This document shows positions 1 through 5,154 of a DNA stretch of 5,154 bases, in pieces. A program made the translations under genes and the position numbers. The number at the start of each line of letters is the position of its first letter. The first letter of the stretch is position 1. Under the pieces are notes generated by a model. It ran no database searches and was not told where the DNA came from. It saw only the letters and a list, made by a program, of their open reading frames with translations. Source of the stretch: an uncultured Chromatiaceae bacterium (lineage in GTDB: Bacteria; Pseudomonadota; Gammaproteobacteria; Enterobacterales; Alteromonadaceae); NCBI GenBank assembly GCA_946481195.1, contig CAMLNG010000296.1, positions 1-5,154 on the forward strand, given 5' to 3'.

Positions 1-2233
1 TCCGCTGGAGTGGGGCCCGACGGGCGCAGGTCTGTCAAACGCTGCTTTAGTTACACAAGATCAGATCAATCAGGTTACTCAGATCGCTAAATCTGTCTAC
101 GGTGTTGATGTTGGTGACTGGAACGTAGTACCGGAAGAAACTGACGAAAAACTGTTAGTGAAACTGGACTGGAATATCTCTGATATCCACCGTGCTGCTT
201 ATACCTATCAGTACAACAAAGGTAACCAGACCCAGGGTAACCAGTCGACTTCAACCAACATGCGTTTGTCGTCAAACTGGTACAACAAAGAAGAAACGCT
301 GAACAACCACGCGTTTAAACTTTACTCAGACTGGACCTCAGAATTCTCTACCCAGTTAAGCGCCACTTACATGGACGTTGCCACAGTACAAAAATCACTG
401 GGCGATTTCGGTGAAGTGTCTATCCTGGTACCACGTTTTGGCGGTACACCAACGCAAACTTCTACTATCTCTATCGGTAGCGACATCAGCCGTCACTCAA
501 ATGACCTGAAAAAGAAAACCTGGATCATCGCTGCTGACGGTGAATACCTGATGGACGACCACCGTTTGACCTTCGGTTACCAGCTGAAGCGCCTGGACAT
601 TTTCAACCTGTTCCTGCAGCGCACTAAAGGTCAGTATACTTTCAACGGTATCGCTAACTTCCAAAACCGTCTGGCACAGTCAGTGCGTTACCAGAACTCT
701 GTAACACACAACCCGGACGACGTTGCTGCAAGCTTCGTGCGTGATGAACACGCTCTGTATGCACAGGATGAGTGGGCTGTGACTGATGAGTTCACGCTGA
801 ACTACGGTCTGCGTTATGAGCGTTTAGGTTCTTCTGATAAATCTGTTTATAACAAGTTCTCAGAAGCCCGTACCGGCTATCGTAACGACGAAAACCTGGA
901 CGGTGCAGATATCTTCTTACCACGTGTTGGCTTCAGCTACATGATGACTGAAGATCTGACAGTTCGTGGTGGTGTCGGTCGTTTCTCTGGTGGCCAGCCA
1001 ACCGTTTGGATCTCTAACAGCTACTCTAACCCAGGTGTTGGTACCGGTGATCGTTCACAAAGTAACGTCGCCAACGTCAGCATCACTGAAGTTCCACAGT
1101 CGTTAAAAGACGCAGTGGCTGGCGTGACTACCGGTGGTAACACCAACCTGGTGGACCCGAACTTCAACCTGCCTTCTGACTGGCGTGCGCAGTTAGGCGC
1201 AGACTATATTTTCAGCCTGCCACTGGTGGGTGATGAAATCACCTGGACCACTGAATACCTGTACATCAAGAAACAAGACAGCTCGTACTGGAAAGACGTG
1301 TCTATCCGTGATTCAGAGAAAGTCGGTACTACACCGGATGGCCTGCGTAACATCTATAACGATACCGACGGTGTCGTAGATATCATGCTGACCAATGCCG
1401 ATGAAGACGGTCGTGCCAAAGTATTCAGCACGCAACTGGCGAAAAACTGGGACAGCGGTGTCAGCCTGCGTACTTCATATACCAATATGGATATCACTGA
1501 AGGTGCACCGGCAACCAGCTCTACTGCAGGTTCTAACTACGGTAACAACGCCGTGATCAACCGTAACGACGTGCTGATTGGCCGTGGTTCTTTTGAAACT
1601 GAGCACCGTTTTGTCGTGAATCTGGGTTACGAAACTGAGTTCTTCGCCAACTACGCGACGAACTTCAACCTGTTCTTTGAGCGTAAATCAGGCAAGCCAA
1701 TTACTTATGTTCTGGGTGTAGCTGATTTCAACGGTTCGAACAAAGCGACTAACCCGTACCTGCAGTTAAGCCCGGGCACAACCAACAACTACTTCCTGCC
1801 ATTCATTCCGAAAAAGGGTGATAACAGCGTCGTAACTTTTGCTGATGCCGCGTCTGAAACTGCGTTCTGGAACACAGTAACTGCGCTGGGTCTGGATAAA
1901 TACCAGGGGCAATACCTGCCAAAAGGCGTGAACACCACGCCTTGGGTCACTACACTGGACTTGTCAGTCCGTCAGGAAATCCCAGGGTTTGCTGAAGGTC
2001 ATAAAGGCACTGTGTATTTCACAGTTGATAACCTGCTGAACCTGATCGATAAAGATAAAGGTAAAGTGTACGGCGATGACTTTGGTGACATGACGCTGTC
2101 TAACTTCGTGTTGAATCAAACCAACAACAAGTATGTTTACAGCAACGTGACTTCAAATACCAACAACTGGGACAAGTTCTACACTGAAGAATCAACCTGG
2201 CGCATCAAAGTAGGCGTCAGCTACAAGTTCTAA
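1..2233 (+). CDS. TonB-dependent outer-membrane receptor, Oar-like, C-terminal part (5' end outside window)
   Basis: This is a partial gene. The frame is open from base 2 to the TAA at 2231-2233, giving 743 visible codons; a GTG at 158 is internal, because the frame reads on without a stop to the left edge. The visible part is the beta-barrel of an outer-membrane receptor driven by TonB-ExbBD. It shows alternating hydrophobic/polar strands rich in Tyr, Trp, Asn and Asp, and landmarks typical of Oar-like receptors: YAQDEW near visible residue 253, LNYGLRYE near 266, PRVGFSYM near 307 followed by a GGVGRFSGG segment. It ends in an amphipathic strand with a terminal Phe (VGVSYKF), the usual BAM recognition end. 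Signal peptide, any carboxypeptidase-like N-terminal domain, TonB box and plug would lie upstream. Arg is mostly CGT, Asn mostly AAC and Gln mostly CAG, suggesting strong expression. Family is confident; the ligand is unknown. Confidence 0.93.
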   Translation, partial: PLEWGPTGAGLSNAALVTQDQINQVTQIAKSVYGVDVGDWNVVPEETDEKLLVKLDWNISDIHRAAYTYQYNKGNQTQGNQSTSTNMRLSSNWYNKEETLNNHAFKLYSDWTSEFSTQLSATYMDVATVQKSLGDFGEVSILVPRFGGTPTQTSTISIGSDISRHSNDLKKKTWIIAADGEYLMDDHRLTFGYQLKRLDIFNLFLQRTKGQYTFNGIANFQNRLAQSVRYQNSVTHNPDDVAASFVRDEHALYAQDEWAVTDEFTLNYGLRYERLGSSDKSVYNKFSEARTGYRNDENLDGADIFLPRVGFSYMMTEDLTVRGGVGRFSGGQPTVWISNSYSNPGVGTGDRSQSNVANVSITEVPQSLKDAVAGVTTGGNTNLVDPNFNLPSDWRAQLGADYIFSLPLVGDEITWTTEYLYIKKQDSSYWKDVSIRDSEKVGTTPDGLRNIYNDTDGVVDIMLTNADEDGRAKVFSTQLAKNWDSGVSLRTSYTNMDITEGAPATSSTAGSNYGNNAVINRNDVLIGRGSFETEHRFVVNLGYETEFFANYATNFNLFFERKSGKPITYVLGVADFNGSNKATNPYLQLSPGTTNNYFLPFIPKKGDNSVVTFADAASETAFWNTVTALGLDKYQGQYLPKGVNTTPWVTTLDLSVRQEIPGFAEGHKGTVYFTVDNLLNLIDKDKGKVYGDDFGDMTLSNFVLNQTNNKYVYSNVTSNTNNWDKFYTEESTWRIKVGVSYKF

Positions 2234-2253
2234 GTGGAATTGTTGTAGTGAAG

Positions 2254-2287
2254 AAAAACGCCGGCAAATGCCGGCGTTTTGTTTTTT
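2254..2287 (+). terminator. Intrinsic terminator after the TonB-dependent receptor gene
   Basis: An 11-bp perfect stem pairs 2255-2265 with 2270-2280 (core ACGCCGGC/GCCGGCGT) around a 4-nt AAAT loop. T runs follow at 2277-2280 and 2282-2287, interrupted by one G. It starts 21 bases after the receptor stop codon and separates that gene from udk. The A run on the 5' side makes it roughly symmetrical, so it could also work on the minus strand, but no gene converges on it. Confidence 0.92.
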
Positions 2288-2331
2288 ACTCAATCCGTAG
2301 CAGAGAAGCAGTATTTTCCCTGTAACAGTGG

Positions 2332-2392: not shown

Positions 2393-3025
2393 GTGGCCAA
2401 ACCAACCATCATCGCCATTGCCGGCGCTTCCGCATCCGGCAAAAGTTTATTTGCTTCCACCGTTTATCAGGAACTGGTGGCAGAATTTGGCGGAGAACGG
2501 ATCTCCGTGTTAGCAGAGGATGCTTATTACCGCAATCAGGATCATCTGTCGATGGACCAACGGGTGCTGACTAACTACGACCATCCAGCGGCCTTTGAAC
2601 ACGAATTATTAGCGCAGCACCTGCAGCAGCTGCGTGATGGCATCGCCGTCGAGATGCCGCAGTATTGTTATAAAACCCATACCCGTAAAGCGGAAACTAT
2701 CAAAGTGCAGCCGGCAAAAGTGGTGCTGGTCGAAGGTATTTTGTTGCTGACCGATGCGCGTTTACGCGAGCAGTTTAATATCACAGTGTTTATGGACACG
2801 CCGCTGGATATTTGTTTGTTACGCCGGATTAAACGTGACGTGGAAGACCGTGGCCGGACTATCAGCTCCATCACTGAGCAATATGAAAACTACGTGCGGC
2901 CGGCATTTTTTGAGTTTATCGCACCGTCAAAACAATATGCCGATATTGTGGTGACCCGCGGTGGCAAAAATCAGATTGCTATTGATATTTTAAAAACCAA
3001 AATCCGCGCGCTGTTATCGAATTAA
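2393..3025 (+). CDS. udk: Uridine kinase (uridine/cytidine kinase)
   Basis: Cytosolic pyrimidine-salvage enzyme that phosphorylates uridine to UMP and cytidine to CMP with ATP or GTP. The 210 residues compare with about 213 in E. coli Udk, and the sequence recalls that protein throughout. The Walker A loop GASASGKS is at 11-18. The nucleoside-binding region has EDAYY at 42-46 and NYDHP at 61-65. The strand [10 protein letters not shown] at 110-119 is followed by TDARLR. The Arg-rich lid is [12 protein letters not shown] at 144-155, and the C-terminal block is [13 protein letters not shown] at 189-201. The start is GTG at 2393: an in-frame TAA at 2357-2359 closes the frame upstream and no ATG lies between. 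A weak purine-rich ribosome site (AAAGAAGA, 2376-2383) is suitably placed. The gene is flanked by terminators on both sides, so it is probably monocistronic, although a nucleoside transporter gene lies just downstream. Confidence 0.97.
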
Positions 3026-3044
3026 GCCGCTAAAATCTGTTGAT

Positions 3045-3072
3045 AAATCCCGCTGCGGCGGGATTTGTTTTT
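3045..3072 (+). terminator. Intrinsic terminator after udk
   Basis: A 9-bp perfect stem, AAATCCCGC (3045-3053) with GCGGGATTT (3058-3066), encloses a 4-nt TGCG loop. T-rich sequence follows (3064-3072, interrupted by G3067). It starts 20 bases after the udk stop and should uncouple udk from the nupC unit. Confidence 0.9.
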
Positions 3073-3092
3073 CCACAATTTTGTGCTGAACA

Positions 3093-3110
3093 TCGCGAAT
3101 TTAGCCGCGA
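3093..3110. repeat. Short inverted repeat TCGCG-N8-CGCGA
   Basis: TCGCG at 3093-3097 and CGCGA at 3106-3110 are perfect inverted copies 8 bases apart, about 90 bases upstream of the predicted nupC start point. This could be a binding site for a dimeric regulator or simply chance; the arms are only 5 bp. No known regulator consensus was recognised. Confidence 0.25.
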
Positions 3111-3144
3111 AAACCAGAAATCGTGCGGGCAGATGATTGTTTGC

Positions 3145-3178
3145 ATTGCTGTTAAATTAGTCTCTTTTCAACTGCAAT
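3145..3178. promoter_or_regulatory. Operator-like imperfect inverted repeat over the nupC promoter
   Basis: ATTGCTGTT (3145-3153) and AACTGCAAT (3170-3178) are inverted copies matching at 8 of 9 positions, with centres 25 bases apart. The right arm overlaps the presumed -35 region and lies just before the -10 box. An octamer overlapping the left arm, TTTGCATT (3140-3147), differs at one position from GTTGCATT, the remembered half-site of CytR, the LacI-family repressor of nucleoside uptake genes in enterobacteria. The position suits a repressor of nucleoside uptake. Which protein binds, if any, is inference. Confidence 0.35.
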
Positions 3179-3194
3179 ACTTCTGCTATATAAT
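3166..3194 (+). promoter_or_regulatory. Probable sigma70 promoter of the nupC operon
   Basis: The -10 box TATAAT at 3189-3194 is a perfect consensus, with TG at 3184-3185 just upstream. The best-spaced -35 is TTTCAA at 3166-3171 (17-base gap, 3 of 6 matches), so recognition would lean on the -10 or on an activator. The start point should lie near 3201-3202. The stretch right after the -10 is CGGCCGGC (3195-3202), a very G+C-rich discriminator of the kind found at promoters inhibited by ppGpp/DksA. This gives a leader of about 175 nt before nupC. Confidence 0.55.
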
Positions 3195-3230
3195 CGGCCG
3201 GCAAAACTTCAAGTTCAGACAACCCCATAC

Positions 3231-3265
3231 GAGCAATTCTCAGTCAGAATCAATGATTCCGGCTC
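3231..3265 (+). promoter_or_regulatory. Upper leader segment with two competing hairpins
   Basis: GAGC (3231-3234) can pair with GCTC (3262-3265) to close a domain. Inside it ATTCT (3236-3240) can pair with AGAAT (3246-3250), or GAATC (3247-3251) can pair with GATTC (3255-3259). The two inner hairpins share bases 3247-3250 and exclude one another. Stems are short (5 bp), so this may be chance, but it lies in the 5' untranslated leader of nupC upstream of the candidate pseudoknot. Confidence 0.25.
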
Positions 3266-3285
3266 CCGCTTTGAAACTGTAACTA

Positions 3286-3370
3286 CTTGATCTTTTGATG
3301 CTATCCTAGGATTTCAGCATCACAAGAACAATAATTCCGCAGTGCTGTAGCGGACCTAAAATCCAAGGAA
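3286..3370 (+). promoter_or_regulatory. Candidate pseudoknot RNA element masking the nupC ribosome binding site
   Basis: Stem 1 is a perfect 7-bp helix, TGATGCT (3296-3302) with AGCATCA (3316-3322). It may be extended across a left-side bulge (3290-3295) by CTTG (3286-3289) with CAAG (3323-3326). Its 13-nt loop contains TCCTAGGATTT (3304-3314), which is complementary to AAATCCAAGGA (3359-3369) except for A3308/A3365. The latter segment includes the nupC Shine-Dalgarno. A second hairpin, TCCGC (3336-3340) with GCGGA (3350-3354), sits between the two partners. Loop-to-ribosome-site pairing with an embedded hairpin is the general plan of translational pseudoknot riboswitches such as preQ1-II, though I do not recognise that or any known family in the bases. 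There is no T run after the hairpins, so control would act on translation. The complementarity is seen directly; regulation and any ligand are inference. Confidence 0.5.
3365..3370 (+). promoter_or_regulatory. nupC Shine-Dalgarno sequence
   Basis: AAGGAA at 3365-3370 lies 7 bases before the ATG at 3378 and 10 before a second in-frame ATG at 3381. It supports both, with the first preferred. It is part of the segment complementary to the hairpin loop at 3304-3314, so access by ribosomes may be controlled. Confidence 0.85.
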
Positions 3371-3377
3371 AATCAAT

Positions 3378-4592
3378 ATGATGAGTTTAGTTGGCATCGC
3401 TGCCATCTTGTTAATCGCTTATCTTTGCTCGACGCACCGCCACGCCATTAAATGGCGTACTGTCGGTGGCGCTTTTGCAATTCAGCTGGCGATTGGTGCT
3501 TTTGTGCTTTATGTGCCGGCCGGTAAAGATGTGCTGATTAGTGTTTCTGATGCTGTTGGTGCAGTCATTGGCTATGCCAACGAAGGTATTTTATTTTTAT
3601 TCGGTGATACGGGCGCAAAAAAATATGGCTTTGTGTTTGCCATTCACGTTCTAACAGTCATCATTTTCTTCTCTTCTTTAATTGCTGTGCTGTATCACAT
3701 TGGCGTGATGCGCGTGGTGATTAGTGTGCTCGGTGGTGGTTTACAAAAGCTGCTCGGTACCAGCCGGCCGGAATCGATGAATAGTGCGGCCAACATTTTT
3801 GTCGGTCAGACTGAAGCGCCATTAGTTGTGCGGCCCTTTATTCCGACCATGACCCGTTCAGAGCTTTTTGCTGTGATGGTCGGGGGCTTGTCGTCAGTGG
3901 CTGGTTCGGTACTGGCGGGTTATGCCGGCATGGGCGTTGAACTCAAATATCTGATTGCTGCTAGTTTTATGGCAGCACCTGGTGGTTTGCTGATGGCTAA
4001 ATTATTGTTGCCGGAAACTGACACACCAAAAAATGATTTAACTGAATTAACCGCAGACGAAAAAAATACCAACGTCATCGACGCAGCTGCAGCAGGCGCA
4101 GCCAGTGGTTTGCAGTTGGCATTAAATGTCGGCGCTATGTTACTGGCCTTTGTCGGTCTGATTGCGCTGGTCAATGGCGTGGTCGGCTGGGTTGGTAGTC
4201 TGGCTGGGTTTGAAGGTCTGACATTACAGCTGATTTTTGGTTATTTATTCCAGCCACTGGCGTTTATTTTAGGTGTGAGCTGGGAAGAAGCCCGGTTGGC
4301 CGGCAGTTTTATCGGTCAGAAACTGGTGATTAATGAATTTGTCGCTTACGTTGATTTTATGAAGCATGTGCAGGCTGGTGAATTGTCAGCGCACACGCAG
4401 ATTATTGTCACGATAGCGCTGTGTGGCTTTGCAAACTTCTCGTCGATTGCCATTTTGCTGGGTGGTCTTGGCAGCATGGCACCAAGCCGGCGTGGAGATA
4501 TTGCAGAGCTGGGTTTAAAAGCACTGTTTGCCGCCACATTAGCAAACCTGATGAGTGCGGCGATCGCAGGCTTTTTCTTCTCGTTAAGTTAA
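3378..4592 (+). CDS. nupC: Na+-coupled concentrative nucleoside transporter (CNT/NupC family)
   Basis: Inner-membrane symporter that takes up nucleosides, uridine in characterised relatives, with sodium. The 404 residues fit the family (about 400-420), and the sequence is closer to Vibrio cholerae CNT than to E. coli NupC. Hydrophobic segments lie near residues 2-18, 29-47, 84-108, 162-185, 190-210, 244-268, 284-300, 341-362 and 380-402, with re-entrant hairpins near 136-160 and 305-330. Binding residues known from V. cholerae CNT are present: GQTE at 143-146, E320 in NEFVAY (319-324), and N353 and S356 in FANFSS (351-356). The sodium-site positions read N139, V142, S173 and V174; the last is Ile in V. 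cholerae as I remember it. A polar loop lies at 214-230. The start is ATG 3378 behind AAGGAA; ATG 3381 is possible. The gene follows a long structured leader and leads a probable operon with the oxygenase 15 bases downstream. Nucleoside specificity beyond the family is inferred. Confidence 0.95.
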
Positions 4593-4607: not shown

Positions 4608-5154
4608 ATGACTCAACAACAAGTCCCTACGTTGGACATCAGACGGTTTGCCACCGACAAAGACGCCTTTGTTGCCGAAATTGGCAAAGCCTACACTGAG
4701 TTTGGATTCTGTGGCATCAGTGGCCACGGTATTTCAGACGAAGTGGTTGGGGAAACCTACAAAGCAATTAAGCAATTTTTTGCTTTACCGACTGAAGTAA
4801 AACAGCAGTACCATGTGCCGGGTCAAGGCGGCGCGCGGGGCTACACGGGATTTGGTGTTGAGAAAGCCAAAGACAGCAAGCATCCGGATTTAAAAGAGTT
4901 CTTCCATGTCGGTCGTGAGCTGTCTGGCCCGGCACCACATGAATGTTTATATCCAAATGTCTGGCCAGCTGAAGTACCGGAATTCAAAGCCGCAACTTAT
5001 ACGCTGTATCAGGCGCTGGAAAACTTAGGTTGTCAGGTGCTGGAAGCTTTGGCTTTGTTCTTAAAACAAGAACAAAAATACTTTGCTGACAAAGTGAATT
5101 ACGGCAACTCAATTTTGCGGCCAATTCATTACCCGCCAATCCAGGACACCTCGA
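4608..5154 (+). CDS. 2-oxoglutarate/Fe(II)-dependent dioxygenase, isopenicillin N synthase-like, N-terminal part (3' end outside window)
   Basis: This is a partial gene: 182 codons are visible of roughly 320 expected, with no stop before the window edge. Residues 5-110 form the N-terminal domain of the isopenicillin-N-synthase-like superfamily: VPTLDIRRF at the start, then EFGFCGISGHGI (31-42) and the FFALP motif (57-61). GARGYTGFG (75-83) and LKEFFHVGRE (95-104) follow, then GNSILRPIHYPPI (166-178), the segment that precedes the catalytic core. The HxD...H iron triad and the 2-oxoglutarate Arg should lie beyond the window, so activity cannot be confirmed. ATG 4608 is chosen because AGG (4597-4599) lies 8 bases upstream and the first in-frame upstream stop is the nupC TAA itself (same frame, five codons between). 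The close spacing and lack of a terminator indicate co-transcription with nupC. Relatives hydroxylate thymine, plant hormones or peptides; the substrate here is unknown. Confidence 0.9.
   Translation, partial: MTQQQVPTLDIRRFATDKDAFVAEIGKAYTEFGFCGISGHGISDEVVGETYKAIKQFFALPTEVKQQYHVPGQGGARGYTGFGVEKAKDSKHPDLKEFFHVGRELSGPAPHECLYPNVWPAEVPEFKAATYTLYQALENLGCQVLEALALFLKQEQKYFADKVNYGNSILRPIHYPPIQDTS

Follow-up and report, generated by a model that had tools for sequence, protein, structure and literature searches.

Translational riboswitches such as preQ1-II and SAM-II use a pseudoknot that masks the Shine-Dalgarno (SD) sequence. In CsrA-repressed leaders of the E. coli glgC and cstA type, the known pattern is a GGA in a hairpin loop combined with a second GGA in the SD, and ribosomal protein operons carry mRNA leaders that bind protein and mediate autoregulation. 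Purine and 2'-dG riboswitches occur near nucleoside genes. The xanthine/NMT1 riboswitch is likewise purine-related (PMC7373994). Here we analyze a leader RNA located directly upstream of nupC in a 5,154-nt stretch of DNA (the window, meaning that stretch at its full length), in which the following features lie.

158-2233: TonB-receptor-like beta-barrel gene, only its 3' end in the window
2393..3025, forward strand: udk, uridine kinase, upstream of nupC (NF004018 and TIGR00235 over cut-off)
3045..3072, forward strand: hairpin resembling a terminator downstream of udk; 9-bp stem and UGCG loop, followed by G and a run of five U, identified by direct inspection
3165..3194, forward strand: predicted sigma-70 promoter of nupC, TTTTCA - 18 nt - TATAAT, 10 of 12 consensus matches
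3201..3377, forward strand: conserved nupC leader RNA, whole element, 177 nt, present in all 22 genomes of one genus
3378..4592, forward strand: nupC, concentrative nucleoside transporter, the presumed regulated gene (TIGR00804, 491 bits; PF07662/PF01773/PF07670)
4608-5154: DIOX_N oxygenase gene, start only, beginning 15 nt past nupC

We propose, with a probability of roughly 0.53, that 3201..3377 is a genus-specific, cis-acting RNA of Rheinheimera-like bacteria that responds to a ligand or protein and sets nupC translation, the loop of one hairpin (P4) masking the SD. That a structured leader precedes nupC had been claimed in an initial annotation of this DNA and is borne out by all 22 genomes of this genus. 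The interval given there, 3286..3370, covers just the 3' portion of a larger conserved element.

Like riboswitches of the preQ1-II and SAM-II type, the nupC leader combines a compact sensor-like domain and invariant internal-loop bases with a predicted loop-SD pairing near the start codon. It differs from them in matching no Rfam family, in holding the SD partner in a separate hairpin, P4, with the sensor-like part upstream, and in being found, in our searches, in a single genus and before a single gene. With glgC- and cstA-type CsrA leaders it shares the hairpin-loop GGA and SD GGA; unlike these, it has a 13-15 nt loop with a conserved palindrome and a large conserved 5' domain, and one nupC leader has no loop GGA. 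Conserved RNA structure over the SD and a narrow phylogenetic range are also found in ribosomal protein leaders, whereas the gene downstream here encodes a membrane transporter and not an RNA-binding protein, making autoregulation unlikely. Finally, the nucleoside/purine uptake gene context is shared with purine, 2'-dG and xanthine/NMT1 riboswitches, to none of which the leader has an Rfam match. Overall, the leader appears to work most like a translational riboswitch or a protein-controlled leader, and a riboswitch is a candidate.

The flanking regions contain other structures. The hairpin 3' of udk (3045-3072, with its U run) resembles an intrinsic terminator and is absent from the list produced by our terminator scan, perhaps because its stem is lengthened into the tail by G-U pairs. 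The TonB-receptor gene is likewise followed by a strong hairpin, at window positions 2225-2290, whose tail is U-rich; Rfam models BSnc120, rnk_pseudo and STnc350 match this region below threshold, apparently through nothing more than resemblance to a terminator. Downstream, the start of a DIOX_N-like gene follows nupC in relatives as well (for example L083 and L098), and this oxygenase may be co-regulated with nupC, acting on a nucleoside or base.

The promoter scan found one site against 0.9 expected in shuffles, which is weak taken alone. The element TATAATCG and 4 further nucleotides lie immediately 5' of the leader in all 23 leaders, window included, and leader conservation starts at about the predicted +1 of the 3165-3194 promoter. 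The nupC transcript is expected to start at about 3200-3202. Given that the promoter element keeps a fixed spacing in 23/23 leaders, the transcript should contain the leader, in agreement with the initial annotation, which allows no start downstream of 3300. No intrinsic terminator inside the leader was listed by a scan of 3000-3400, a strict scan whose list also omits the udk hairpin at 3045-3072. The lack of a listed terminator-like site in that interval makes translation the likelier level of control, and the leader probably controls nupC translation.

To define the distribution of the leader, we combined protein and RNA searches. A protein search of 295 genomes of the family of Rheinheimera baltica listed 15 nupC genes with 84-94% identity (L083-L097), and all 15 loci carried the TATAATCG element and the same kind of leader upstream. 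A covariance model, R1, covering the 5'-most 134 nt of the leader, was built from these 15 relatives and the window. Scanned over 395 genomes of the family with strict filters and eight candidates scored per genome, R1 found the leader in 22, with one strong match each, before nupC; a 23rd, G429, gave E 0.71 only. Within the genus of G048 the leader precedes nupC in 22/22 genomes. In total there are 23 leaders counting the window, all immediately 5' of a nupC start and beginning 116-223 nt past the udk stop; 22 are distinct, L121 being omitted because its leader is identical to that of L117. The leader-bearing nupC products are 83-98% identical to that of the window, and from this identity and the presence of the same leader directly before nupC, we infer that the window belongs to the same genus.

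Beyond this genus the searches gave little. In the sister genus, R1 returned nothing convincing among 31 genomes (best in one of them, E 0.96). Across 368 other genomes of the class it gave no match with an E of 0.5 or below, in a scan whose strict filters and limit of eight candidates per genome could have lost diverged members. Among 79 other nupC loci and the window, R1 matched the window alone. An extra R1 match on the other strand of the window (20 bits, E 0.3) was also found; G274 (E 0.18) and G429 also gave weak additional matches, an opposite-strand palindrome and a 22-bit match, both of which we judge to be chance. An 18-base pattern, with two mismatches allowed, occurred at 52 places in 51 of 394 genomes of the order, compared with about 36 for the reversed control, and two of the 52 places were true leaders (G048 and G086). 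At eight other loci with this pattern R1 found nothing convincing (best L140, E 0.49). The DNA of 3190-3400 had no match in 98 relatives of G001, a set that includes none of the 22 leader-bearing genomes, so this result is uninformative. Plasmids yielded no leader match, and a 27-base pattern did not occur exactly in viral contigs.

The initial annotation had recognized no known RNA family, and the leader indeed has no match in Rfam 15 at E up to 5. With laxer filters and E up to 10, the sole match was a snoRNA model on the opposite strand (E 7.8). In seven relatives searched at E up to 1, the lone overlap with a leader was a sub-threshold GlsR16 match that reaches 7 nt into the 3' end of the L130 leader. 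Such a leader is not described in the titles and abstract openings found by literature searches on Rheinheimera, nupC, nucleoside transporters, riboswitches and candidate structured RNAs. A leader-peptide attenuator was rejected because no upstream open reading frame is conserved, the commonest start/stop pair (with a GTG start) occurring in only 8/22 leaders.

We compared the leader with fourfold-degenerate positions of its gene in 10 of the 23 leaders, dropping the L112 rows, which a codon indel put out of register. Between subgroups, fourfold-degenerate sites of nupC are 34-53% identical, compared with 83-97% for the leader block GCAAAAC...AGCAA and 92-97% for the block CCCGCU...UGCU. This comparison indicates that the leader is under strong purifying selection.

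The 5' part of the leader can form a domain with the following components, all on the forward strand.

3209..3214: 5' strand of P1, UCAAGU, pairing with 3285-3290; invariant in 22/22
3215..3231: 5' side of the internal loops, UYAG, ACA (3219-3221, P1b) and ACCCC; 12 of 17 positions invariant
3232..3234: P2, AGC, pairing with GCU at 3268-3270; invariant in 22/22
3242..3264: P3, variable hairpin, 3242-3245/3261-3264 and 3247-3251/3255-3259; pairing largely kept
3271..3284: 3' side of the internal loops, conserved GAAACUGUAACU, with UGU 3278-3280 as P1b; 12 of 14 positions invariant
3285..3290: 3' strand of P1, ACUUGA; invariant in 22/22

This domain is aptamer-like, with invariant internal-loop bases set in a P1/P1b/P2/P3 layout. 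It spans 3201-3290, was absent from the initial annotation, and is the likelier sensor. In minimum-energy folds of the isolated core, all 22 distinct leaders are closed by P1 and P1b, and 21 form a hairpin at P3, L128 differing. In the best nested fold of the leader plus 30 nt of nupC, P1 appears in only 3/22 leaders (L113, L114, L128), and its pair probability within the full leader ranges from 0.01 (window) to 0.97, as computed with a program that models neither pseudoknot nor ligand.

Across the leaders, 92.6% of cells in the named structure can pair, compared with 31-39% when partners are slid, a score favored by the structure having been drawn partly from the same sequences. P3 differs among leaders in sequence and length while 92.0% of its cells pair, and three of its four counted pairs have changed on both sides (16 cells). 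These 16 double-change cells, all in P3, compare with 7.6 (sd 1.7) in shuffles. The covariation score of 0.100 exceeds the 0.068 of shuffles and was reached by none of 500, although kinship alone can beat shuffles without structure. Pairs with a double change (3, compared with 2.7 in shuffles and 5 with partners slid by -3) and pair types (13 compared with 13.1 in shuffles) are not above controls, so the covariation comes entirely from P3. P1, P1b and P2 are invariant and thus draw no support from it. Two other pairings were also considered and rejected: a long-range alternative fold (CCGC/GCGG, CUGU/GCAG), whose partners are present in 11/22 leaders only, and an additional anti-SD on the 3' side of P1 (against CCAAG), for which the ribosome binding site (RBS) ranked top in 0/22 leaders.

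Downstream of P1 lie the elements on which the initial annotation had centered, again on the forward strand.

3291..3327: P4 hairpin, 3296-3302/3316-3322, with lower stem 3291-3293/3325-3327 and loop 3303-3315
3304..3314: P4 loop segment able to pair with the ribosome site at 3359-3369 (10 of 11 positions)
3336..3354: P5 hairpin, 3336-3340/3350-3354; 87.3% of cells paired
3359..3369: Shine-Dalgarno region, sequence AAAUCCAAGGA, complementary to the P4 loop

The pairings described there were confirmed, with 7/7 pairs in the P4 hairpin 3296-3302/3316-3322, 5/5 in the separate hairpin 3336-3340/3350-3354, and 10/11 between loop and RBS, the mismatch being A3308-A3365. Its estimate that the loop match had odds of about 1 in 700 is close to the frequency for the one fixed 11-mer, against which 4/2000 dinucleotide-preserving shuffles of 3201-3350 reached 10 of 11 pairs (~1 in 500); against any 11-mer of 3353-3377, 18/1000 did so. 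On the window sequence alone, the loop-RBS match is suggestive, not overwhelming.

Related leaders provide a further view of this pairing. The SD-region sequence is AUCCAAGGA in 20 of the 22 distinct leaders and ACCCAAGGA in the other two (L125, L133). The seven core loop-RBS pairs, which leave out the central mismatch and three outer positions, hold in 151/154 cells, so the complementarity that had been predicted to persist in related leaders is kept in its core. The central mismatch is unpaired in 22/22 leaders and never repaired, and the three outer pairs erode (5/10, 10/22 and 17/21 cells with letters). Helix covariation, which the initial annotation had also looked to, was uneven: one pair of P5 occurs as U-G, U-A and C-G; P4 is paired in 100% of cells, with eight of ten pairs invariant and two varying one-sidedly; and no loop-RBS pair has changed on both sides.

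We also ranked possible targets of the loop by duplex energy, taking the leader together with 200 nt of nupC. The RBS, within a 3-nt shift, is the best target of the loop in 19/22 leaders; the remaining three have a better partner, the RBS ranking 7 (L125), 7 (L133) and 16 (L132). Nine distinct loop-RBS combinations had a native mean of -9.2 kcal/mol and a permuted mean of -9.24, with 2691/5000 permutations at least as good, and thus no loop-RBS coevolution was seen among them. AUCC precedes AAGGA in 20/22 leaders. It is replaced by ACCC in L125 and L133, whose loops have GGG; these two may have shifted to GGG/CCC pairing, yet L122 carries the loop change alone.

The same motifs invite a protein-based explanation, in which a dimer of CsrA, or another RNA-binding protein, bridges the GGA of the P4 loop and that of the SD and blocks ribosomes, the 5' domain serving stability or a second factor. 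The sequence pattern of CsrA target leaders is indeed present: a loop GGA occurs in 21/22 distinct leaders, L129 having GGG, and a GGA lies within the SD (AAGGA) in 22/22. The gene csrA is found in 21/22 genomes of the genus; it is common in the class, so its presence tells little. This proposal leaves unexplained both why bases of the 5' domain are invariant and why AUCC is conserved ahead of the SD. We regard CsrA as the best protein rival, though rather unlikely.

A different explanation arises from the P4 loop itself, whose octamer 3304-3311 is self-complementary, with G-U allowed, in 22/22 leaders. In L132 the octamer is UCCGCGGA: GC has replaced UA, so that the palindrome CCUAGG has become CCGCGG, and this double change preserves self-complementarity at the cost of one RBS pair. 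Given this invariant self-complementarity, SD masking is not the sole reading of loop conservation. The palindrome could act alone, through a kissing contact of two leaders or through an inner helix, AUC/GAU, that extends P4 and is used by the nested fold of the window; the RBS match would then be a by-product of near-palindromic AUCC..GGA sequences. A central RBS mismatch left unpaired in every leader and the lack of coevolution between loop and RBS both fit such an origin. What it leaves unexplained is the retention of AUCC before the SD in 20/22 leaders despite the low identity of nupC fourfold sites, and dimers of single-mRNA leaders are probably unlikely at cellular concentration. We consider it doubtful that the palindrome is the whole explanation.

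It is also conceivable that the leader is ordinary, its conservation being due to sites that act in the DNA, in promoter escape or in binding a transcription factor, with the pseudoknot match a product of chance. The match frequency against any 11-mer of the RBS region, only ~1 in 55, is compatible with this, as is an unexceptional fold energy: the single-sequence fold of 3201-3400 has z -1.62, with 14/200 shuffles as stable. Conservation, however, runs ~135 nt past the predicted start, and the conserved stretch is broken by a hairpin that varies in sequence and length with pairing largely kept, which makes an ordinary leader very unlikely. Least probable of all is a target for a trans-acting small RNA (with Hfq), for which long invariant runs such as ACUUGAUCUUUUG and GCAAAAC, present in 22/22 distinct leaders, could be single-stranded seed sites, but these runs flank a covarying hairpin and can pair with one another (P1, P1b, P2), which a target does not need.

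A ligand- or protein-responsive leader that sets nupC translation thus remains our preferred reading, and it would operate as follows. Transcription would begin at about 3201, and the first ~90 nt would fold as a sensor-like domain comprising P1 (UCAAGU/ACUUGA), P1b (ACA/UGU), P2 (AGC/GCU) and the variable P3, together with two internal loops, split by P1b, whose bases hardly vary (UYAG, ACCCC / GAAAC, AACU). P4 would adjoin P1 without a gap, and its loop would pair with AUCCAAGGA, covering the SD, while P5 would occupy the space between the P4 loop and its RBS partner. Occupancy of the internal loops by a ligand or protein might then stabilize or undo the SD masking and thereby set the amount of transporter. 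We infer pseudoknot formation, translational rather than transcriptional control, the direction of that control and the existence of a ligand. Any ligand would likeliest be a nucleoside, nucleobase or nucleotide, judging from the gene alone, since the leader is found only before a nucleoside transporter gene. It would be unusual for a riboswitch to be confined to a single gene in a single genus, which counts against our preferred reading.

To our knowledge, no riboswitch is known for pyrimidine nucleosides. It is a tentative and on balance unlikely idea that the nupC leader represents a new class of natural riboswitch, the first to recognize a pyrimidine nucleoside or a related metabolite of salvage (uridine, cytidine, thymidine or one of their phosphates), with 3201-3290 binding it and thereby, by way of P4 and its loop, closing the nupC ribosome site.

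The arrangement of udk and nupC differs among relatives. Among the best 80 listed, the nearest named relatives by nupC are R. baltica (79%) and Alishewanella agri (80%), in which udk-nupC gaps of 20 nt and 16 nt are too short for the leader to fit. At other named nupC loci the upstream gaps run from 11 to 855 nt; these may hold different kinds of leader, and R1 matches none of them. In 15 genomes of the sister genus (L080, L081, L098-L110), the udk stop lies ~15-20 nt before nupC, a spacing in which neither promoter nor leader can fit, and the two genes are probably co-transcribed. In the genus of the window they are ~300-400 nt apart.

If confirmed, the leader would add an orphan cis-regulatory RNA class. 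As a small bounded element (177 nt) with 22 natural variants and a short list of likely ligands, it is directly testable. It would also mean that nupC, which lies no more than ~20 nt from udk in the sister genus, has its own promoter and RNA control in another.
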